The notes beneath the pieces were generated by a model, which saw only the letters and a program-made list of their open reading frames with translations, ran no database searches and had not been told where the DNA came from. From the NCBI GenBank assembly GCA_016788565.1, contig JAEUSP010000101.1:1-64000 (forward strand): DNA of 64,000 bases. The letters run 5' to 3'. Every line of letters starts with the position of its first letter. Within the stretch, counting starts at the first letter, position 1. Both the position numbers and the translations under genes were made by a program. Shown piece by piece: positions 1-39,522 of this stretch. This DNA comes from Chlorobiota bacterium (GTDB lineage Bacteria > Bacteroidota > Ignavibacteria > OLB7).

Positions 1-3000
1 GCCGTTGGTGGCAAGACAGGTTCTGAAGCGGGGGTCGCGCTCCGCAACGTGCTGGGGCTGGTGCAGAAAGCATCGGGGCCGGCAGAAGCGGCAATGGGCA
101 GGCTGGGGACATCATCGAAAGAGTTGGGGCAGTTGCTAACCACGCAAGGGCTTGGGCCAGCACTTCAGAAGCTGCAATCAGGGATGAACGCGCTTGGGAC
201 AGATGCCGAGCGCAACGCCACGTTGATGACGATTTTTGGGACGGAGAACTCCGCTGCGGCGGGTATTCTGCTGGAGAACGTTGATAAGCTCGCGGAGTTT
301 GAATCGGGAATCTTGGCAGGCGAGCAAGGCATCGGCGATGCTTTTGCACAGGCCCAGGTAAGGATGGATACCGTCGAGTCCAAGATGTCGCGGTTCTCGG
401 CGCGGATGAAGGACTTAGCGATCACTGCTTTCGGTACGATAGGGGACGGGTTAGCAGGCTTTGTTGGCATTCTTGGCCAAGCGGCTCCGGCATTAGCTAC
501 GGTGTCGAATCTGAAACTCCTGATCCCCACCGATTTCAAGTTCGACACCAGCAAGCTGACCGGCACGCTTCAGGGAAAGTTGGAGGGGCTGGCAACATCG
601 TTCGGCCCTTCAGTCAAGAAGCGGTTTTCGGATGCACTAAGCGGGGCGTTTGACGCAAAGGATGCTGGGGCAAAACTGCGCACCGCGCTTGGCTCCATTT
701 TCCGTGACGGAGCGTCGGTGGCTGGCAAGCAGCTTGGCGGGCTTGGCAAAGGGCTTGCAGGGCTATCGGGGATTGCAAAGCAAGCGGGCGGCGGCATCGC
801 TTCCGGTTTTAAGGGGATTAGTGGATTCCTCGGCCCAGCCGCGCCGTGGGTTGTGGGGATCACCCTTGCGGTGGGGCTATTCACGCTCCTCTACAACAAA
901 AGCGAAAAATTCCGTGCGGCGATAGATGGGCTTGTCTCCAAGCTGAAAGCTGGGTTTGAAAAAGTCGTTTCCTCCGTTGGGCCGATTTTCGAGCAGGTAC
1001 TGGGGATACTCGGAGAAATCGGTGCGTTGATGTTAGACTTCCTCATCACACCGGTCGAGCTTTTGGTGGGGCTGCTATCGGGGGTTGGCGATGTGATTGG
1101 TGGCTGGCTTGCTCCATTGGTTGGAGCAGGTGATGCAGCCGGATTCTTCCAGAAGGTGATGGAGGGGATTGAGTTAGTGCTGGTGATGGTGAAGTCAAAC
1201 ATCGAGGGGCTAAAGGCGGCATGGGAATCGGTGAAGACGAGCATCGGGGACGGATTCGGCAAGTTATTCAGCGGCGATGTTGTTGGTGCGTTCGATTCCT
1301 TTACCTCCGTTGGTTCAAATGCCAGTGAAGCGTTCAACAACGCTTTTAAGGAGGGGATTGACAAAGGTGCAACAGAAATCGTTGCGCGGCATTTGAAGGA
1401 AACGCTGGAGAACGCTTCTAAATCTCAATCAAAATTCAAGCAGGCCGAGGAGCTTGACAAGCTGATTGATAAATACGAAAAAACGACCGACGTATTTAAG
1501 AAAAATCAACTTGCACTTGAAATTCAAAAAATCGCTCCAGCAGCGGTAAAGAATTTCAAGATGGTGGAGGATTCGCAAGGGAAGCTCGTCAAGGTGTATG
1601 ATGTCTCCATTGATGCTGCACGGCGGTTTGAGGAGCAGCAGCGAAATAGCGCGAAGAGCGCAGGAGAGGGGCTACCGGAAAACTTCCTCAACGGCATTGA
1701 GGCCCAGATCAAGCTCTACGATGATGCAAAAAAATCGTTAGCCGAACTTCAGGAACAGCGCGCCCAAAAAGTTGCTACTGGCGGTAGTACCGAGGATATT
1801 GACAAGCAGATTGCGGATCAAGTGAAGGGGATTGAGAAAATGAAAACCGAGGTGGAATCTCGGTTTGGTGAAGGGGTCAAACTGGGGCTGTTGAAAAATC
1901 TGCCAGAGGAAGGGGAGGAGCGGTTGCAGGCACTACGGCAGAAATTCCCCGTAGTGTTCTCCCAGATTGAATCGGATGCTGCGCAATCGGGAATTGGCAC
2001 GGCATTAACGAAAGCCGTTTCAATCAAGGGGGAGCTTGACAAAACCGGGTCGCTGAAAAAATTGGTGGAGGATTTCCGCAAGGCGGGAACCGAGGCAGAA
2101 AAATCGAGCATCGCAAAAAAAATCCAGGAGCAGATACCGGAAGCGGTGAATGCTGTTGGAACGTTTGTGGATGCCCACGGGAACATCCAGACAGCGTACA
2201 AGTTAGACGAGAAGGCTGCCGACAACTATTTCAAGTCCCAGGAGCAAGCACTTGGCGCAGATGCCGCCAGCAACGCCGTCAGTTTTCGGGAGCAACTGCT
2301 GTTGCTTGCCGATCAGTATGGCAACCTAAAACAGCGGATTGCTGAGACACGGGACAAGCTCAACAACTCGACCGATCCGGCAGAGCGTGCAAGGTATCGG
2401 CAGGAACTGATTCAGCTTACCGAGCAGGCGAACAAGCTCGGTGGGGCAATCGGGAAGACCGTCGTTGAAGGGCGGAAATTCGGGTTCGTCAAAGGGGATG
2501 TGAAGCAGGTTAGCAGTGAGCTTGGTGCATCCACAGAGCAGTCGGATGCCCTGACTGAGGGTATGGCGAGAGTAGGACAGGAGACTGATAAGGCGAAGGT
2601 TGCAGCGCAAGACCTTGGCGAGGCGTATGATGCAGCCGGGAAGGCATTGCAGGAGTCGTTGGATGCAAGCGTGCTGACCATCCTTGCCAACGAGGCGGAG
2701 ATTGCACGGCTGACTGGGGAGATTGCCCAGAACTTCAACAATCCCGTAGCGGTGGCCCAGATCAACGGGCGCATTGCGGAGCTACGGAAGCAGAACGACG
2801 AGTTGAAATCGCAATCGAAGGGGCAAGTCATCCAGATTGAGGAGAGGAAGCGGCGGAAAGATGTCATTGAGGTCGAGCTTGGGATACAAGACCCCAAAGC
2901 ACCGGAAAAGAAGGAGGGGAAAGGCAAAGATACCGCCGACGCGATTGACTTTAGTGACGAGCTAAAAAAAATTGCCGAGGATACCGCAAACATTATCACC

Positions 3001-5934
3001 GACATCCGGCTTGCAGGTGTTGAGGATGAGATAGCGAAGGAGAAAGCTATTCGCAGCCGTGCTGCTGACGACGCGATTGACCAAGCCAGCGAGAATCTGG
3101 CGGCGCAGTTAAAGGCGGTTGATGAAGCGAAAAAGGAGGGGAAAGCGATCACGCCGATTGAGGTGATGGTTGATGGGAAGCTGCGAAAAATCACCGCCCC
3201 CGACGAGATCAAGGATGCCTTCCGCCGGGCGACGCAGGATCAGATCAACGCTATCAGGGCGCAAGAAGGGGTGGACCTTGCCCGGATAGAGCAGGAGGGG
3301 TTAGAGAAAAAGAAGGCGGCGTTGCGGCAGATTGTCGCAGAGGAACGCAAAGCGGTTGCTGATAGCTACCGGGCAGAGGCAGAGGGACTTCAGAAGCGGT
3401 TGGAGTTGATAAAGGGGAACAGTGCCGATGAAATCCGGCTTCGGTATGAAATCAAGCAGCGGCAGATAGAGTTAGAGCGTGATGCAGCAACGGAGACGGC
3501 CCTTGCTGAAAACGATGTGTTTGTGGAGAATTACACCAATCTCCAGCAGTTGCAGCAGCAGTTAGACGAGACAGAGGACGAAGCAGAGCGGGAGAAAATT
3601 CGGCAATCTATTGCTCGGCAACGTGTTGCACTCGCCACAACGCGGCAACAGTTGTTGCAATCGAACGAAGTGCTGCTGGCAATCCAAAAAGATTTCGATA
3701 CGAAGAGCGGAGAAAACACCACCACAAAAGATCGTGAGTTATACCGGGTTCGGAATCTGGAGCGAATCGCTGCGATTAAAAATGCAGCAGAGCAGGAAAA
3801 AGAACTTGCGCTGTTCAACCTTCGGGATAAATACGAAGAGGAGTATTCCGCAGCAGTTGGGAATGCTGCAAAGCAAGAAGAATTGACGCGGAAGTTTCTT
3901 GAAGAGAAGCGAAAAATTGAGGAGGATTATCTCACAAAAACCGACACGTTATACAGGGTGTCCCTGAATTTCAGGGATGCACTGCTCGACGTATTTCTGT
4001 CAAAGCAGGAGCGGCAGAATAAAGCCGAAATTGATCTTGAGCGGGAGAAGTTAGACACCCAAGAAAAAGACCTTGCGGCCTCTCTCCACAAGCGAGAAAT
4101 CAGTTATCAGGAATACTCGGATAAGGTTGCCGAGTTGAACGAGCAGCGGCAGGAGTTAGAGAAATCGGGGGAGGTGCAGAACAGCAATTTATTGATTGCT
4201 ATTCGGGACAACACGCTGAAGGTGTTTGAGAAATTGGCGGAGAAGGAGCAGGCGAACAACGTAGAGGCAGCAAAAAAGGTTATTGACACAGGTGTCACCA
4301 CCGCACTGACAAGGGAGAAGCGGGAGCGGGAGAGCCGCAAAACATTTGAGAAGGAGCAGGAGTCATACAAAGAGGAGTTAGTGAAGTCGAAAAAAAGCGA
4401 GGTGGAGATCACCGAGGCTTTGCAGGAGCGGGAGGAGGGGTTTAAAACCGAGCAGACCAAGCAGGGGTTGAAAGAGGAGCAGGAAGCGGGGGATGCCCGG
4501 GTGGAGTTGTTAGAGCAGAGCGCGGCGACCATGGGAGTGCAGTTAAGCAAGCTCGCCCTATCTGGCAAGATCACTATGGAGGATGTGCAGGCAACGGTGC
4601 TTGGAACGGCATTTGAGACTATCCAAGCCTTGACCCTGTCCTATGCCGCCCCAATCCTTGCTTCTGCAACGTCATTCCTCGGCCCTGTTGCCGGTCCGAT
4701 TGCAGCGGCTCTACTCACCGGCGTGTTGCAGGGGTTACTCTCCACCGCTCGCGGGGCATTAGGGCTAAAGAAGGGGAAGGTCAAAATCAAAGGGCCGGGC
4801 GGGCCAGAGGATGATTTGATCCCCGCCAACTTGTCTGCGGGGGAGTCGGTACTAACGGCGAAGGCAACTGCTGCTGGGAGCAATGCGTCCATCTTGGAAT
4901 GGGCGAATGCTACTGGCCGGCCCATTGTTGAGAACCCCGAAGTGCTAAGTAGCATCCATATCGGGAGGTTCAGTAGTGGAGGGTTGATAGACGTACCGAA
5001 GGACAAAGGGGGAATCCTGCCGCCCTCTTTCAATGCAGTTCCGGCGGTATCCCCCGAGGCGAGAGGAACAGCGTTCAATTCCGTTCAACTATTGTCGTTT
5101 GCAACGCAAATCAGTGGTAAGAAATCACTGGGAGGGCTTGGAGGGTTGATAGATATACCGAACGTGCGGGGAGGGCTGTTCTTGGACATCATTGACACTG
5201 CTTCGCATCGCGTCGGTAAATCCTCCAATAGTGCGTTAGCAGATGACCCAAAGGACAAAGGGGAATTGCCAACTCAACAGGTGGCATCTGTTGAAAACGA
5301 TCTTGATAGCATACGGAGTTCGGGAATACAGCCTGAGCAGGTGATGAATGCGCTATTGACATCTGGCCGTAGCGATGAGCTTACACAAGAAGCGAAGGCA
5401 ATGCACGAATTGGCAAACGTGTTAAAGCAGTTCAACATCAGTTTCAGCCCCAGCTTGCCACGTCGTTTCAGCGAGGGGGCCGTTGCGATTGATGGGCCTG
5501 GGACGATGACTTCTGATTCGATCCCAGCATACTTGTCCTTCAAAGAATCAGTGATGACGGGCAAGGCAACAATGGCAGGAGGGGAGGGGCCGTTAGGGAA
5601 CGCCAACGTGTTCCGTTGGGCGAATGCTAATGGACAGAGCATCTTAGACTATCCGCCGCTCAAGGCGCGGTTAGCAGAGATGCCTATCATGCCAGACCTT
5701 GATAGAGATGCCTTGCAGGAGGTGTCTATCTCAATGATTGGAGGGAGGGTAAGTGATGCACAGTCTGATAGGAAGGTACGGCAGGTTGAATCGGAGAACA
5801 GGCAGATTCTGAAGACGTTGGAAGCAATTCATAAGGAGTTGACAAAGGATTCGGTAACGAAGGAGAACTCCAGTGGATACTCCATCACGAAGGTGTCAAA
5901 GAAGGTTCAGAGGGCGAAGGCAAGGAGGGGGTAG
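1..5934 (+). CDS. Phage tail tape measure protein (5' end off window)
   Basis: The reading frame is open from the first base, and the product starts in the middle of a domain typical of TP901-type tape measure proteins (residues GSEAGVALRNVL in the first 20 codons), so the true start lies left of the window. At least 1,977 codons remain. The protein sets tail length and is ejected with the DNA. A hydrophobic stretch lies near bases 820-890, followed by very long charged Glu/Lys/Gln coiled coil (about bases 1380-4500) and another hydrophobic segment (4620-4760). The C-terminal part contains a duplicated motif: a GPGGPEDDLIPANLSAGES unit near 4795 and a divergent copy near 5490 (SDSIPAYLSFKES), each followed by a WANA motif. 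I see no peptidase domain. Its position before the tail-tip and fibre genes fits the normal late order of siphoviruses. Confidence 0.9.
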   Translation, partial: AVGGKTGSEAGVALRNVLGLVQKASGPAEAAMGRLGTSSKELGQLLTTQGLGPALQKLQSGMNALGTDAERNATLMTIFGTENSAAAGILLENVDKLAEFESGILAGEQGIGDAFAQAQVRMDTVESKMSRFSARMKDLAITAFGTIGDGLAGFVGILGQAAPALATVSNLKLLIPTDFKFDTSKLTGTLQGKLEGLATSFGPSVKKRFSDALSGAFDAKDAGAKLRTALGSIFRDGASVAGKQLGGLGKGLAGLSGIAKQAGGGIASGFKGISGFLGPAAPWVVGITLAVGLFTLLYNKSEKFRAAIDGLVSKLKAGFEKVVSSVGPIFEQVLGILGEIGALMLDFLITPVELLVGLLSGVGDVIGGWLAPLVGAGDAAGFFQKVMEGIELVLVMVKSNIEGLKAAWESVKTSIGDGFGKLFSGDVVGAFDSFTSVGSNASEAFNNAFKEGIDKGATEIVARHLKETLENASKSQSKFKQAEELDKLIDKYEKTTDVFKKNQLALEIQKIAPAAVKNFKMVEDSQGKLVKVYDVSIDAARRFEEQQRNSAKSAGEGLPENFLNGIEAQIKLYDDAKKSLAELQEQRAQKVATGGSTEDIDKQIADQVKGIEKMKTEVESRFGEGVKLGLLKNLPEEGEERLQALRQKFPVVFSQIESDAAQSGIGTALTKAVSIKGELDKTGSLKKLVEDFRKAGTEAEKSSIAKKIQEQIPEAVNAVGTFVDAHGNIQTAYKLDEKAADNYFKSQEQALGADAASNAVSFREQLLLLADQYGNLKQRIAETRDKLNNSTDPAERARYRQELIQLTEQANKLGGAIGKTVVEGRKFGFVKGDVKQVSSELGASTEQSDALTEGMARVGQETDKAKVAAQDLGEAYDAAGKALQESLDASVLTILANEAEIARLTGEIAQNFNNPVAVAQINGRIAELRKQNDELKSQSKGQVIQIEERKRRKDVIEVELGIQDPKAPEKKEGKGKDTADAIDFSDELKKIAEDTANIITDIRLAGVEDEIAKEKAIRSRAADDAIDQASENLAAQLKAVDEAKKEGKAITPIEVMVDGKLRKITAPDEIKDAFRRATQDQINAIRAQEGVDLARIEQEGLEKKKAALRQIVAEERKAVADSYRAEAEGLQKRLELIKGNSADEIRLRYEIKQRQIELERDAATETALAENDVFVENYTNLQQLQQQLDETEDEAEREKIRQSIARQRVALATTRQQLLQSNEVLLAIQKDFDTKSGENTTTKDRELYRVRNLERIAAIKNAAEQEKELALFNLRDKYEEEYSAAVGNAAKQEELTRKFLEEKRKIEEDYLTKTDTLYRVSLNFRDALLDVFLSKQERQNKAEIDLEREKLDTQEKDLAASLHKREISYQEYSDKVAELNEQRQELEKSGEVQNSNLLIAIRDNTLKVFEKLAEKEQANNVEAAKKVIDTGVTTALTREKRERESRKTFEKEQESYKEELVKSKKSEVEITEALQEREEGFKTEQTKQGLKEEQEAGDARVELLEQSAATMGVQLSKLALSGKITMEDVQATVLGTAFETIQALTLSYAAPILASATSFLGPVAGPIAAALLTGVLQGLLSTARGALGLKKGKVKIKGPGGPEDDLIPANLSAGESVLTAKATAAGSNASILEWANATGRPIVENPEVLSSIHIGRFSSGGLIDVPKDKGGILPPSFNAVPAVSPEARGTAFNSVQLLSFATQISGKKSLGGLGGLIDIPNVRGGLFLDIIDTASHRVGKSSNSALADDPKDKGELPTQQVASVENDLDSIRSSGIQPEQVMNALLTSGRSDELTQEAKAMHELANVLKQFNISFSPSLPRRFSEGAVAIDGPGTMTSDSIPAYLSFKESVMTGKATMAGGEGPLGNANVFRWANANGQSILDYPPLKARLAEMPIMPDLDRDALQEVSISMIGGRVSDAQSDRKVRQVESENRQILKTLEAIHKELTKDSVTKENSSGYSITKVSKKVQRAKARRG

Positions 5935-25106: not shown

Positions 25107-25172
25107 GTTGTTGATGTACGTCGGCGGTATTGAATTACCGTCATGTTCTTTGAAATGCCGGGTGGAGAGACT

Positions 25173-25323
25173 GTTCCTCGCTTTGAGCGGGGATGTCCCG
25201 TTATTCACTCAGTTTTCTGTGGTGAATCCAAATCGTTCCTGGCATAAGCCGGGATGCTTCGATAAGGTGTTGATTTCATCATCAGCACATCAAGAGTTCC
25301 TCGCTCTGAGCGGGGAGTTTGAT
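25173..25323 (+). CRISPR. Degenerate three-repeat CRISPR-like array
   Basis: Three 28-base units begin at 25173, 25235 and 25296, spacings 62 and 61. Each starts GTTCCT and contains a short stem: CCTCGCT-TTG-AGCGGGG, CCTGGC-ATAA-GCCGGG and CCTCGCT-CTG-AGCGGGG. In unit 2 both arms of the stem have changed together, so pairing is kept. The consensus (GTTCC, GC-rich stem, GGGGATG) looks like type I-E repeats and resembles, in the same orientation, the intact array after the gene. The 282 bases between 25107 and 25388 hold no credible gene. Confidence 0.55.
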
Positions 25324-25388
25324 AATCTCCACCCGGCCATTTCAACCCCACCACATCATGCGCCTGCTATTCTACCAATCCACAAGAC

Positions 25389-27041
25389 ATGATTATCACC
25401 AAAGCATATCGAACGGAAATTTATCCGACGGATGAGCAGGCGATAGCATTCCGCAAGACCTGTGCGGCGGTGCGGTTTGTCTATAACTGGGCGTTGTGCC
25501 GCAAGATAGAAGCCTATCGGGATGAGGAAGCGAACCCAGAGCTTGTAAAAGAACTTGGCGCGAAAGTCCGTGAACTAAAAAAGACGTTGAAGCTGATTAC
25601 TCCTGACGAGGATGGGGGATTTGTCCACAAGAAAACAGGCGAAGTTCTCACCACTGAAAGCGTTGAGGAACTACGTCAATCTTTGCAGGAAACCCAGCAG
25701 GCAATGCAAGGCTTGAAGCCAAAATATCTTGGGCAATCAGACTTGCAAGGTCAAGAACTTGCGGCACTGAAAGAGAAAGAGCCGTGGTTAAAAGAAGTTC
25801 CCGGCATGGCATTGTTAGCAGCATTGCAAAACAACGACAGGGCGTTTAAGCGATTTGGTGATATGGTGAAGAAGGAAGGTGCAAGACCGAGGGGAAAGCG
25901 ATTGACCCGTCAGCCTGGTTTTTTGTACCGTTGGTTTGGCGCAGAGATGGTAGAAAGCGGCCAGATAGAGTATCCCAACCTTGAATACTATCCACGATTT
26001 CAAACTACACGGGATGGGCTGGGGGGCTTTAAGTTTTTCAGTGCCATTCGCGTAAAGCGACGTGAGATAAGGGTTCGCGGAATTGAGGGATATATTAAAC
26101 TTGCCGAGGCGGATGCTATGCCGCTACCACCACAGGATGCAGCTTGGATTGATGGGAAGGGCAAGAACGCTGGGATGTGGAAACAGGATGGAAGTTTTGA
26201 GTATCTCTCGCAAACACGTGAAGATAAATCGGAAGGACGGTTGCCAATAGGTCAGCGCAGATTTGCAAGCGGTGCGATTACTGAAGATCGGGGGCGATGG
26301 TATGTCTCGCTTACGTTCACCGAAGCCGTTCCAGACCTTCCGCCCCCCGATGGAGTTGATGTCCTTGCCGTGCATCTTGGATTGCAACGGCTGGCCACGT
26401 TTAGTGATGGATCGCACGTTCCTCGCCCAGCCCACTATGAAGAGAATGAAAAACGGTTAGCAAGACTAAACCGCTCGTTAGCCCGTGGACGGGAGGAAGC
26501 AAAAAAGGTAGGGAGGCGTTGGAAGCAGTCGAACGATTATCGTGAACGCCGAAAAGAAAAAGGAGACTTAGAGGCCCATATTGCAAACCAGCGAAAAGCA
26601 TTTTCGCATGAACTCACGGCACGGATCACCTCTCAAAGACCGAAGATTCTTGTGCTACATGATTGGGGGATTCAGGGGATGATGCGAGATGATGGCAAGC
26701 GTGTTGTGAAGAAGAAAAAGAGCAATGGGGAAGAGGTCGAATACAGTTATCGCGTGAACTTAGCAAAGCCCATTTCCCATGCGGCATGGGGGATGCTGAA
26801 TAACCAAATCAAGTACAAAGCTCAATGGCAGGGGATAGAAGTGGTCATCGCACCATCGGAGTTCGCCGTCACGCAACGTTGTTCTGCTTGTGGCGAACTC
26901 AATCAAGAGATGGGAAAGCCGAACCCGCCCGTGATGTTCCAATGCCCGTGTGGGAATAAAATGCACAGGGATGATAATGCGGCGAAAAATCTATGGTGGT
27001 ATGGCCACCAATATCTTGCTCAGACGACACCGAATGAGTAA
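25389..27041 (+). CDS. Nuclease-dead TnpB/Cas12-like RNA-guided protein
   Basis: 550 residues. The N-terminus (TKAYRTEIYPTDEQAIAFRK and FVYNWAL) is the TnpB/OrfB helix-turn-helix region. Residues about 320-345 align with RuvC-I, but the catalytic Asp is His329 (VLAVHLGLQRLATFS). The bridge segment LEAHIANQRKAFSHELT is typical. RuvC-II reads ILVLHDWGIQGM with His424 in place of the catalytic Glu. RuvC-III HRDDNAAKN keeps Asp528. A zinc ribbon has CSAC (498/501) and CPC (519/521, one residue shorter than usual). The protein should bind guide RNA and DNA without cutting, as in Cas12m, Cas12k or TldR repressors. It is longer than ordinary TnpB because of an insertion at about 45-170. A structured RNA and CRISPR array follow at once. 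No TnpA, cas1 or cas2 is nearby. The family call is firm; function and residue assignment by eye are inference. Confidence 0.85.
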   Translation: MIITKAYRTEIYPTDEQAIAFRKTCAAVRFVYNWALCRKIEAYRDEEANPELVKELGAKVRELKKTLKLITPDEDGGFVHKKTGEVLTTESVEELRQSLQETQQAMQGLKPKYLGQSDLQGQELAALKEKEPWLKEVPGMALLAALQNNDRAFKRFGDMVKKEGARPRGKRLTRQPGFLYRWFGAEMVESGQIEYPNLEYYPRFQTTRDGLGGFKFFSAIRVKRREIRVRGIEGYIKLAEADAMPLPPQDAAWIDGKGKNAGMWKQDGSFEYLSQTREDKSEGRLPIGQRRFASGAITEDRGRWYVSLTFTEAVPDLPPPDGVDVLAVHLGLQRLATFSDGSHVPRPAHYEENEKRLARLNRSLARGREEAKKVGRRWKQSNDYRERRKEKGDLEAHIANQRKAFSHELTARITSQRPKILVLHDWGIQGMMRDDGKRVVKKKKSNGEEVEYSYRVNLAKPISHAAWGMLNNQIKYKAQWQGIEVVIAPSEFAVTQRCSACGELNQEMGKPNPPVMFQCPCGNKMHRDDNAAKNLWWYGHQYLAQTTPNE

Positions 27042-27322
27042 GTTGGAAAGTATGAGTACCGGTCACAGCCAATAGGGTTCCCCTTGATGGCATAATCAGC
27101 CGGAATCTCGCTCTGCGTAAGCGGAGCAAAAGCCCCCCGGAGAGGCTAAGGTTCATGTCCAGAAATGGTGCAGGTGGGCCTCGATGAAGGGAGTCGGTGT
27201 TATGGGCAACCATAACAGGACTTAGGGAACTCTGTACTCTCAGAACGTTACGATGGGTTCGTACCGGCCAGAATCGCTCTTTGAAATGGACGGAATATGG
27301 CGATTGTAGAGCGATTTTAAGT
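27042..27322 (+). ncRNA. omegaRNA/tracrRNA-like scaffold
   Basis: The segment between the TnpB-like stop codon and repeat 1 is non-coding and highly foldable. Stems include GCTCTGC/GCGGAGC (27110-27128), AGCC/GGCT (27131-27147), GTTATG/CATAAC (about 27199-27215) and a 9-bp stem AATCGCTCT/AGAGCGATT (27272-27280 with 27308-27316) ending 6 bases before the array. It aligns with 38921-39186 beside the TnpB relic: GGAGAGGCTAAGG with GGGGAGGCAAAGG, AATGGTGCAGGTG with AATGGTGGCACAGGTG, GTTATGGGCAACCATAACAG with GTTATTGACAACAATAGCAG, and CGGCCAG in both. The 3' position relative to a TnpB gene is that of omegaRNA. Expression and processing are predicted, not shown. Confidence 0.7.
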
Positions 27323-27949
27323 CTTCGTTCTGCGGGTGCGGGGATGATGGGTTGATAGGCAGCCGAGGCGCACTCTAAATTGTCTTCGTTCTGCGGGTGC
27401 GGGGATGATGGCGTACTCATCGGCAACGGCGGAGCGACGTTTACCTTCGTTCTGCGGGTGCGGGGATGATGGCAGACAGGCAGCTACAGACTACCAACGG
27501 CGGCGCTTCGTTCTGCGGGTGCGGGGATGATGGTGTTTCTGGCGATAGCGGAGGAGCTTCGGGGCTCTTCGTTCTGCGGGTGCGGGGATGATGGCATTGA
27601 TAACGGAAAACGAGTTGCGCCAAGTTACTTCGTTCTGCGGGTGCGGGGATGATGGTGGTATGACCCTTGGCGGACACCATGCTGCCACCTTCGTTCTGCG
27701 GGGATGATGGCTACATCTACGTCGTCAATCGCCGCACCTTTGCCTTCGTTCTGCGGGTGCAGGGGATGATGGTCTCCTAAAAGTGAAGTGTGATCTGTTT
27801 TACTGCTTCGTTCTGCGGGTGCGGGGATGATGGCTACATCTACGTCGTCAATCGCCGCGCCTTTGCCTTCGTTCTGCGGGTGCGGGGATGATGGTGCAAG
27901 TTTCTCCTACTGAACCTCTCTTGTCTCCTTCGTTCTACGGGGATGATGG
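27323..27949 (+). CRISPR. CRISPR array, 11 repeats and 10 spacers
   Basis: Repeats start at 27323, 27384, 27445, 27506, 27567, 27628, 27689, 27744, 27806, 27867 and 27928. The standard repeat is 28 bases, beginning CTTCGTTCTGC and ending GCGGGGATGATGG. All ten spacers are exactly 33 bases. Repeats 7 and 11 have lost 6 bases (GGTGCG) and repeat 8 gained one A. Spacers 7 (27711-27743) and 9 (27834-27866) differ at one base. The hairpin TTCTGC-GGGT-GCGGGG needs three G-U pairs and therefore forms only in plus-strand RNA, giving the direction of transcription. The 61-base period resembles type I-E, yet no type I genes are present. I saw no spacer match within the window by eye. Confidence 0.92.
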
Positions 27950-28371: not shown

Positions 28372-28550
28372 GCGCACAAGTATGGCGAGAGGGGAAGATA
28401 GACAGCCAGTGCCACTGCTGCCCCCGCAATCCATACCAAAGGATCATTGCACTTTTCATCGCTGAAAGGTCGATCAACATCATCAAGGTGACACTTCACA
28501 CCGATGAACGGCAATGGTACTTTAACGAAAGATGCTGAGAATATCAGCAT
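28368..28550 (-). CDS. Possible small membrane protein
   Basis: 60 residues read leftward, ending with a plausible membrane helix (PLVWIAGAAVALAVYLPLSP). Its start lies inside the terminator stem of the opposite strand and no good ribosome-binding site is seen, so it may be spurious. Confidence 0.25.
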   Translation of the reverse strand: MLIFSASFVKVPLPFIGVKCHLDDVDRPFSDEKCNDPLVWIAGAAVALAVYLPLSPYLCA

Positions 28551-28560
28551 CTTTTTTTTT
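28529..28560 (+). terminator. Strong rho-independent terminator
   Basis: AGATGCTGA pairs with TCAGCATCT around a five-base loop (28530-28552) and is followed by an unbroken run of T to 28560. It would end transcripts coming through the CRISPR array and the 96-residue gene. Confidence 0.85.
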
Positions 28561-38095: not shown

Positions 38096-38360
38096 ATGGT
38101 TGTTATCCGTACATACAAGACGCTACTGCTTCCTAACGAAGAGCAACTACAACAACTCCAGACAATAGCACATGGAGTGAAACTTGTGTGGAATTGGGCC
38201 CTTGCTGAACGGATTAGAGCATATCAGCTGAAAGGGGAAACGATTTGGCAGGAGAAAACGCCGGTTTGCCTGTATCAATCCTGACTGCAAGCACGTAGAA
38301 TTGCGTGAGAGGAACTCCGCAAAGAATGTCAGGGATTTTAGTGATCCGCAAACGGATTAA
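38096..38360 (+). pseudogene. TnpB pseudogene, internally deleted
   Basis: The first 55 codons (TYKTLLLPNEEQLQQLQTIA; VKLVWNWALAERIRAYQL) are the TnpB N-terminal domain. After base 38261 the frame shifts by one and codons 38262-38360 encode a TnpB C-terminal tail (FACINPDCKHVELRERNSAK then NVRDF), the zinc ribbon and the RuvC-III NAA region in degenerate form. The whole RuvC core is missing, so this is a relic with a large internal deletion. It belongs to the same protein superfamily as the intact gene at 25389 but is not a recent copy of it. The omegaRNA-like sequence follows. Confidence 0.75.
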
Positions 38361-38367
38361 GAATCAA

Positions 38368-38410
38368 CCCCAGGCAGGGTGAAGTCACATCCGAACCTGC
38401 CTATGGCAGT
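38368..38410 (+). repeat. Truncated copy of the TnpB-relic scaffold RNA
   Basis: CCCAGGCAGGGTGAAG, TCACATCCGAACCTG and CCTATGGC repeat the start of the longer RNA-like segment at 38924. Similarity is lost after about 40 bases. It stands directly after the TnpB relic, where the original omegaRNA head would be expected. Confidence 0.65.
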
Positions 38411-38579
38411 GAAAGCCCTTTGGCCGGGCGATTAAAAGTGGAAGTCAATAAGATAGCATCACACCCATCATATGCGAAATACACCATCAACATCAAACAA
38501 TACGATTGCATTGCGGAGAGCTTCCTATCTTTCCAATACAACGCCAAGTATCACTGGGAAGTCCTCACGCAAGAACGAT

Positions 38580-38897
38580 ATGCCGACATTACACAACAAG
38601 CAAGGGAAAGTACTGCTCCGAACCGAGATTATCACTCGGGAATCGCTCATGCGGGTTTGCCAGCTGATTATTGCTTCTTCTGGTGAAAGCCAACGGGCAT
38701 GGGCAGCAAAGGTTGATGTTTCAGAGCAAACGCTCTCGAATGCTATTAACCATGCAGCACCAGCCAAAGATTACGTCCGGGAGCGGATCATCAGCCACCC
38801 CGTGTTTGGCCTTAGAGAACATCTGGTAAAAACGGCCAGATACATCATTGCCGATGAAGGTGAGAGTATGAACGGAAAGGAAGCAAGCAAAGAATGA
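38580..38897 (+). CDS. Small HTH-like protein between duplicated RNA heads
   Basis: 105 residues from ATG 38580; in-frame ATG 38472 gives 141 but has no ribosome-binding site. The segment SGESQRAWAAKVDVSEQTLS then NAINHAAP is a likely helix-turn-helix. The sequence sits between two copies of the scaffold-RNA head (38368 and 38924), as if it had been inserted or duplicated into the TnpB element. A short overlapping ORF in another frame (38420-38686) is less convincing. Function unknown. Confidence 0.5.
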   Translation: MPTLHNKQGKVLLRTEIITRESLMRVCQLIIASSGESQRAWAAKVDVSEQTLSNAINHAAPAKDYVRERIISHPVFGLREHLVKTARYIIADEGESMNGKEASKE

Positions 38898-38920
38898 CAG
38901 AAGAGATAATCCCCCAGAAG

Positions 38921-39186
38921 CTATCCAGGTAGGGTGAAGTCACATCCGAACCTGTCTATGGCGGCGGTAAGCGCATAGGAAGAAACGCCCATGGGGAGGC
39001 AAAGGTGCATGTCTAACATTGGAAGCAATGGTGGCACAGGTGAAGAGGTGAGTCTGAGTTATTGACAACAATAGCAGGGACAGGGGACCACCTACGTAGC
39101 ACTGTAACAGGTGTGAGGTTTGGCGGCCAGTCGCAAGTAGAACGGTGGGACATCAACACCTCCTGCTGCGCAGGTGTGATTGACGG
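38921..39186 (+). ncRNA. omegaRNA-like segment of the TnpB relic
   Basis: It begins CCAGGTAGGGTGAAG-TCACATCC, continues through CTATGGCGGCGGTAAGCGC and ATAG, and shares ordered blocks with the scaffold beside the intact dead TnpB-like gene (see 27042). It ends with a hairpin ACACCT-CCTGCTGCGC-AGGTGT followed by GATTGACGG (39156-39186), which resembles the CRISPR repeat (TTCTGCGGG, GATGATGG) in place and sequence. A guide, if present, would start at 39187. The gene it served is broken. Expression is unknown. Confidence 0.6.
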
Positions 39187-39522
39187 CCCACGTCACTGCG
39201 ATTGAGAAAGATAGTGCTGCAAGGTGAGAAAGACAGACGGTCGGAATTCAGCATCGAGACACAATTGTCCCGATGTACAGGGTTATAGATCAAGTCAAAC
39301 GATAAGGTGGTGATAGCGGGGATTATGACACCAGACAAGGCTCGTATAGCACCAGTCAGAATCCTTATCATACACAAGATGGGCATAACATGAGGATGGA
39401 TGCTACCGAGTAACCCCAGAATCAGACGGATATTCGATTGATATTCGATTAGAGGGAAGTGGGGGTAGAAATTGGCGAATTTTCTACAAAAACGTAGGCC
39501 GCGAACATACAGGAAGAATGGT
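39187..39522. other. Phage-host transition zone without credible genes
   Basis: No ORF here has a convincing start or motif. GC rises, and host-type dispersed repeats begin at 39523. The phage or TnpB-element right end must lie in or near this stretch, but I could not identify a duplicated attachment core. Confidence 0.4.

Follow-up and report, generated by a model that had tools for sequence, protein, structure and literature searches.

A nuclease-dead TnpB-like protein, a putative scaffold RNA and a CRISPR array side by side in phage-like DNA of a Chlorobiota bacterium

Can a transposon-derived nuclease that has lost its catalytic residues be guided by a CRISPR (clustered regularly interspaced short palindromic repeats) array, and what would a phage do with it? 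This question is raised by a locus in phage-like DNA of a Chlorobiota bacterium (assembly GCA_016788565.1, contig JAEUSP010000101.1), which we analyzed in a window consisting of the first 64,000 nucleotides of a 72-kb contig (C133) from a 4.58-Mb genome that is 100% complete. On the + strand, a 550-codon gene of the TnpB family is followed by 281 nt of folding non-coding DNA and an array of 11 repeats (Table 1). The layout described in the original prediction, namely a TnpB-like gene, about 280 nt of folded non-coding sequence and the array, all in one direction and without a gap, is thus borne out. Judging from the sequence, we consider it reasonably likely that the locus encodes a phage RNA-guided system that binds DNA without cutting it and that arose from a domesticated TnpB. 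That the array serves the dead TnpB-like protein appears about equally credible to us.

Table 1. Features of the locus and of its decayed second copy, in window positions
Feature	Position	Strand	Basis or remark
Decayed type I-E-like mini-array, three repeats (~25171, ~25235, ~25296)	25171..25321	+	Local alignment to host repeat
TnpB/Cas12-like protein, almost certainly nuclease-dead, 550 amino acids	25389..27041	+	Pfam, PADLOC, NCBIfam, alignments, AlphaFold
Codon CAT, RuvC-I Asp to His329	26373..26375	+	Alignment, codon reading
Codon CAT, RuvC-II Glu to His424	26658..26660	+	Alignment, codon reading
Codon GAT, RuvC-III Asp528 kept	26970..26972	+	Alignment, codon reading
Putative omegaRNA/tracrRNA-like scaffold (281 nt)	27042..27322	+	Fold z-score; homology to 38918-39187
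Predicted anti-repeat CUCUGUACUC-U-CAGAACG	27230..27247	+	Pairs with 27326-27343 of repeat 1
CRISPR array, 11 repeats, ten 33-nt spacers	27323..27949	+	Period 61
Spacer 7	27711..27743	+	Best host-gene site 3/34 mismatches, first 12 nt perfect
Spacer 9	27834..27866	+	One base off spacer 7
Strong intrinsic terminator	28527..28555	+	Downstream of array; possible unit end
Second TnpB relic, N-terminal ~55 codons fused out of frame to C-terminal finger	38096..38364	+	phrog_506; translation
Second scaffold copy, homologous to 27042-27350	38918..39187	+	Score 97 versus shuffle maximum 51

The TnpB-like protein

Three profile collections place the protein in the TnpB/Cas12f/V-U group and confirm the TnpB/Cas12 membership that had been proposed for it: Pfam OrfB_IS605, HTH_OrfB and Cas12f1-like_TNB as well as NCBIfam guided_TnpB all exceed their cut-offs, and the PADLOC matches comprise Cas12u4 (the best, 9.5e-51), Cas12f, Cas12u2 and others. 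The superfamily domains and the layout of RuvC domain and zinc finger are present, and the active DED nuclease triad is absent. In its place the protein has H329-H424-D528. The first two positions are D and E in 29/29 aligned relatives, with histidine at both in the phage protein only, and the third position is acidic in every relative of this set where it is readable. The exchange of Glu for His in RuvC-II requires at least two base changes. The zinc-finger cysteines (CxxC..CxC) and other invariant positions are intact, the codon composition agrees with that of the neighbouring phage genes, and the probability of a 549-codon open frame arising by chance is 8e-14. An AlphaFold model computed from a shallow alignment (predicted local distance difference test score 73.6) found its best PDB match in ISFba1 TnpB (Foldseek, E 4e-21), with ISDra2 TnpB and then LaTranC, Cas12f, Cas12p and Cas12m among the further matches. 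The model depicts an insertion on the REC side, about 70 extra residues at approximately positions 46-115, as confident helices. With two of three RuvC residues replaced, the sequence almost certainly represents a nuclease-dead TnpB (dTnpB), as the original prediction had it.

The scaffold, the repeats and the host's type I-E system

The non-coding stretch behind the gene folds together with repeat 1 at -113.7 kcal/mol (z = -3.0; 0/100 shuffles equally stable), and on the + strand no terminator-like site separates the gene from repeat 1. Rfam returned no match of weight and no family for the scaffold, and a similarity to the Un1Cas12f tracrRNA (trans-activating CRISPR RNA) was dropped for being no better than in shuffles. 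We regard it as very probable that the scaffold is a TnpB-type guide RNA. The repeats are 28 nt long (CTTCGTTCTGCGGGTGCGGGGATGATGG), with eight of the 11 identical; R7 and R11 are short by 6 nt (22 nt) and R8 is one base longer (29 nt). Within the scaffold, an anti-repeat is predicted to form a helix of 17 bp with repeat 1, with ensemble pairing probabilities of 0.84-1.0, and it pairs, by identity, with the remaining full-length repeats as well. Of 400 shuffled scaffolds, only one had 17 pairs with a probability of at least 0.8 in a near-continuous helix. In trans, the anti-repeat gave a ddG of -8.7 with the phage repeat versus -0.8 with the host's type I-E repeat, which is unable to form the helix. 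On these computed folds, the scaffold probably pairs with the repeats in the manner of a tracrRNA.

The window also contains a second gene and scaffold in decayed form (38096-39187), which the original prediction had overlooked, as it had the anti-repeat, the host's type I-E system with its half-identical repeat and the spacers that match host genes. The N-terminus of this TnpB relic matches the phrog_506 transposase, its C-terminal finger reads FACINPDCKHVELRERNSAKNV, and the third Asp is lost too. The second scaffold has an anti-repeat that covaries (39089-39100) and ends in a repeat-like stretch (~39157-39187); at the homologous place it can form the helix CACCUACGUAGC:GCUGCGCAGGUG, with 11/12 pairs and with letters that differ from those of the first copy (p in an anchored test, 0.006 with weighting by bond strength and 0.034 with simple counting). 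The recurrence of the helix in the decayed copy, together with an anti-repeat that fits the phage repeat and not the host's, supports the earlier proposal that TnpB, scaffold and array form one unit. Other observations on this copy went no further: the RNAalifold structure of both scaffolds was distrusted because MAFFT misaligned the helix, homology of repeat 1 with the 3' end of the second locus is not claimed (506/5000 shuffles were as good), a second array behind the second scaffold was not convincing, and the guide of the second locus has no match in the host genome. This locus contains the scaffold's initial part twice (~38371-38400 and ~38926-38955), on either side of an open reading frame (ORF) of 141 amino acids at 38472-38897. 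Beyond the two copies, no further scaffold was found in the genome itself and in 396 phylum genomes.

The host has a type I-E system of its own, which is complete, with cas3 (HD and helicase motifs), cas8e, two cas7e, cas5e, cas6e and cas1e, plus a cse2 candidate (by position) and a cas2-like ORF. The two cas7e frames of this operon (394 and 664 amino acids; L040 5136-8143) overlap and apparently represent a tandem duplication. The arrays of this system, on contigs C74 and C18, have the repeat CTGTTCCCCGCATGTGCGGGGATGATCC and the same 61-nt period as the phage array, whose overall geometry (28-29 nt repeat, 32-33 nt spacer) fits type I-E. Phage and host repeats share GTGCGGGGATGAT in their 3' halves, a similarity reached by 0/5000 shuffles, and differ in their 5' halves. 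The changed 5' half provides seven Watson-Crick pairs of the anti-repeat helix. In predicted energies, the phage repeat hairpin attains -7.5 kcal/mol versus -14.3 kcal/mol for the host's and thus lacks the strength typical of type I-E repeats cut by Cas6e. We infer that the 3' half was retained for spacer acquisition by the host and that the 5' half was adapted to the scaffold. The claim that a transposon guide RNA acquired an array is plausible, but a purely TnpB origin of the repeat is contradicted by its 3' half, which is that of the host's type I-E repeat. Because the repeats share this half and the 61-nt period, the host system probably supplies the spacers. The genome's only Cas1 match lies on a different contig, and there is no cas1-cas2 in the locus. 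The rarity of A as the first spacer base (1/38 host spacers, 0/10 phage spacers) is consistent with one acquisition machinery, the spacers being too few to prove it. Host spacers have no matches in the phage region.

Upstream of the gene, the degenerate array mentioned in the original prediction proved real, with three type I-E-like repeats at a spacing of ~61 nt (alignment scores to the host repeat of 34, 24 and 26). They are nearer to the host repeat than to the downstream phage repeats, have a host-type 5' half and form hairpins of -11.6 to -12.7 kcal/mol; the middle one carries a compensatory stem change (CCTCGC/GCGGGG to CCTGGC/GCCGGG). This mini-array is presumably older than the downstream one.

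Targets, proposed mechanism and competing explanations

The search of the spacers against phage and host genomes, suggested with the original prediction, gave a divided result. Four paralogous host genes (E ~1e-6) and one gene of a sister species contain matches to spacers 7 and 9, the two best host sites being perfect over the first 12-18 nt, and ACCAA precedes every matched site. The other eight spacers yielded chance-level matches only (own genome, class genomes, phages and plasmids; for two of them also IMG/VR). For spacers 7 and 9, the gene family is described further here. The stretch that they match encodes a conserved DTNYIYVVNRRTF in a family with open frames of up to ~1800 codons, one paralogue having a recognized type IX secretion sorting domain; the four long host proteins could possibly be a phage receptor. 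The family members lie at C46:22199, C130:129703, C130:69832 and C119:5481 (L108-L111), and one of them, at C130:129703, is interrupted by a stop codon. Whether these host genes are the intended targets is somewhat doubtful to us, although we take the idea seriously. Because at least one guide, encoded twice, appears aimed at a four-gene family with at least one type IX sorting domain, the most likely use of the system would be to silence host proteins that are secreted or exposed on the surface.

In the mechanism that we propose, dTnpB, scaffold and array would be co-transcribed. According to the computed pairing, the anti-repeat would combine with repeat 1 in cis, resulting in an omegaRNA-like RNA with a single guide; in trans, it would combine with the other full-length repeats to yield duplexes of tracrRNA and CRISPR RNA (crRNA), with RNase III, for which the host has a gene, as the probable cutter of these duplexes. 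dTnpB would bind the guide RNAs and locate targets next to a short 5' motif, where, devoid of its catalytic acids, it would remain bound and block transcription, like Cas12m and TldR. The host's type I-E Cas1-Cas2 would insert the spacers, given that the phage repeat still has the 3' half, and its array the 28+33 geometry, found in the host array. In its full form, this amounts to a multiplexed prophage repressor composed of a dead TnpB, an omegaRNA scaffold turned tracrRNA, chimeric repeats and guides supplied by host Cas1-Cas2, and directed at host surface proteins; we put it forward tentatively and doubt that all of it holds, including the chimeric repeats with one end tuned to the scaffold and the other to host type I-E acquisition. 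If true, a single locus would show a transposon guide RNA becoming tracrRNA plus array, with repeat 1 acting in cis as the omegaRNA end and later repeats in trans, and a phage CRISPR system would repress rather than cut, perhaps stocked by the host's unrelated immune system.

Several observations weigh against the non-cutting phage system that we favour. No close relative of the protein or the scaffold turned up among 391 genomes of the class, 396 of the phylum or in IMG/VR, which leaves the linkage of gene and array to a single locus; no close sister phages emerged via the neighbouring genes either. R7 and R11 pair less well with the anti-repeat in trans. The total number and energy of repeat-scaffold pairs are unexceptional compared to shuffles, because the repeat is G-rich; we therefore rejected total duplex energy as proof, and what speaks for the anti-repeat is how long and how certain one helix is, whose position was first noticed in the minimum-energy fold, making its statistics partly post hoc. 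With no target found for 8/10 spacers, the silencing use of the array is an inference. Survival despite self-matching spacers could be explained by mismatches or an anti-CRISPR, and the 28+33 geometry and the repeat's 3' half are equally expected of a plain type I-E array.

Such an array, borne by the phage, run by host Cas6e, Cascade and Cas3 against other phages and unrelated to the neighbouring dead TnpB, is a rival explanation, and we judge it unlikely. It would account for the geometry, the period and the 3' half, it has a complete host locus including HD-Cas3 at its disposal and a further type I-E-like mini-array right upstream, and mini-arrays with which viruses exploit the host's own system have already been described (PMC11656645). 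These, however, are defined by host-identical repeats and one or two spacers (PMC11656645), neither of which applies to the phage array; its repeats depart in the 5' half and in a hairpin weaker by 7 kcal/mol, R7 and R11 losing still more, and its partner protein and scaffold set it further apart, with the anti-repeat left unexplained. Moreover, spacers 7 and 9 match several host gene copies with perfect 5' seeds, which Cas3 should punish: an active Cascade-Cas3 working with this array would be expected to attack its own chromosome, unlike a dead effector, and we take this as our main argument against use of the array by host Cascade.

Half-matching repeats in a phage whose host has an intact type I-E system might also point to an RNA anti-CRISPR or decoy, mimicking the host repeats in order to titrate Cas6e/Cascade or Cas1-Cas2, with incidental spacer targeting. 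Single-repeat RNA anti-CRISPRs are known (PMC11656645), but 11 repeats with distinct 33-nt spacers are superfluous for a decoy and the dead TnpB and scaffold are left unexplained, rendering this highly unlikely. TnpB guides start at the scaffold end, which repeat 1 abuts, so that the scaffold could be a single omegaRNA ending at 27322 with the start of repeat 1 as its guide; dTnpB would then bind its own array in autoregulation and the array would store no guides. We consider this very improbable, given that both the minimum-energy fold and the ensemble pair positions 4-21 of repeat 1 with the scaffold and that the second copy likewise ends in a matching helix. There is just as little to be expected of a functionless, decaying relic made of dead TnpB, leftover omegaRNA and old array. 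The second copy is such a relic, R7, R8 and R11 are damaged and the upstream array has decayed; yet the 550-codon frame stayed open through a Glu-to-His exchange of at least two base changes, the zinc finger and invariant residues are kept, and 8/11 repeats are identical.

Known systems and the genomic setting

How does the phage system, as we read it, relate to those already described? TldRs are dead TnpB repressors, often found in prophages, with the guide RNA just downstream and with host-gene targets; some clades produce dual guide RNAs cut by RNase III, and decayed copies may lend guide RNAs (PMC13418256). The phage protein is likewise a TnpB with an inactivated RuvC, accompanied by spacer matches to host genes, but TldR loci have one guide each and no array (PMC13418256), whereas the phage locus has ten spacers and an anti-repeat. 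Cas12m (type V-M) is array-guided, binds without cutting and occurs on plasmids and prophages too; in GoCas12m, the RuvC residues are H322-D497-D590 and a 'Roof' spans 50-124 (PMC11013384). The RuvC-I Asp is thus His in both proteins, and the REC insertion of dTnpB lies at the position of the 'Roof' (position compared only). Given that Cas12m acts by blocking DNA and does not cut it, the functional resemblance is strong, be it through descent or convergence. In contrast, GoCas12m is acidic at RuvC positions 2 and 3, where dTnpB has His and Asp, and V-M works without a tracrRNA, while an anti-repeat is predicted here; no Cas12m-named model is among the PADLOC matches.

Type V-N (Cas12n, V-U4), whose tracrRNA is located within the cas12n mRNA (PMC11641405), resembles the phage system in being TnpB-like and combining tracrRNA and array; the best PADLOC profile, Cas12u4, points the same way, and its AA-containing 5' protospacer-adjacent motif can be compared with the AA before the host target of the phage spacers. 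It differs in that Cas12n has an active RuvC and cuts DNA. In type V-K, a dead effector, tracrRNA and array lie in one direction. The phage locus shows the same order, but no Tn7-like transposition genes were recognized among the subset of window ORFs that was scanned, and PADLOC gave no Cas12k match. LaTranC (PDB 9jfo, 9jfq) is a TnpB-like effector near the TnpB/Cas12 border and the fourth-best structural match, with sequence similarity restricted to the C-terminal part. TranCs can use omegaRNA-like as well as array RNAs, and LaTranC is an active nuclease.

On the evidence of profiles and predicted RNA, the locus is therefore not a TldR as described (it has an array), and not V-M (no profile match, a predicted tracrRNA); its dead RuvC separates it from V-N, and in the absence of recognized transposition genes there is no sign of V-K. 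As in V-U-like type V systems, a Cas12/TnpB-like effector adjoins an array in a locus without cas1-cas2, and the most fitting label for it is that of an unclassified, V-U-like, inactivated phage system with a predicted tracrRNA, TldR- or Cas12m-like in effect and a member of neither. Like these two, it most likely binds its targets under RNA guidance and thereby blocks their transcription. Both dead type V effectors and dead TnpBs of phages have been described before. The original prediction knew of no described system with exactly this layout, and a dead phage TnpB combined with an array and a predicted anti-repeat did not turn up in the literature searched. The layout is nevertheless less unprecedented than that prediction supposed: the V-K order is known, and because ~50 independent TnpB-to-array associations, with RuvC loss several times, have been inferred (PMC12669027), so is the class of event.

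The phage attribution of the original prediction agrees with the gene content of the window, whose left 39 kb contains phage genes (tape measure, RNA ligase, holin-like, DUF932). Beyond ~40 kb, the window appears to resemble a bacterial chromosome, and because of this change the TnpB-array element most likely sits in a prophage truncated by the contig end. The contig begins within the tape-measure gene (window 1-5934), and the remaining prophage is therefore presumably on other contigs. Elsewhere, in a stretch of 9 kb (LR745208.1 404814-413596; L065), a 485-kb uncultured phage encodes two full-length TnpBs whose catalytic residues are intact.

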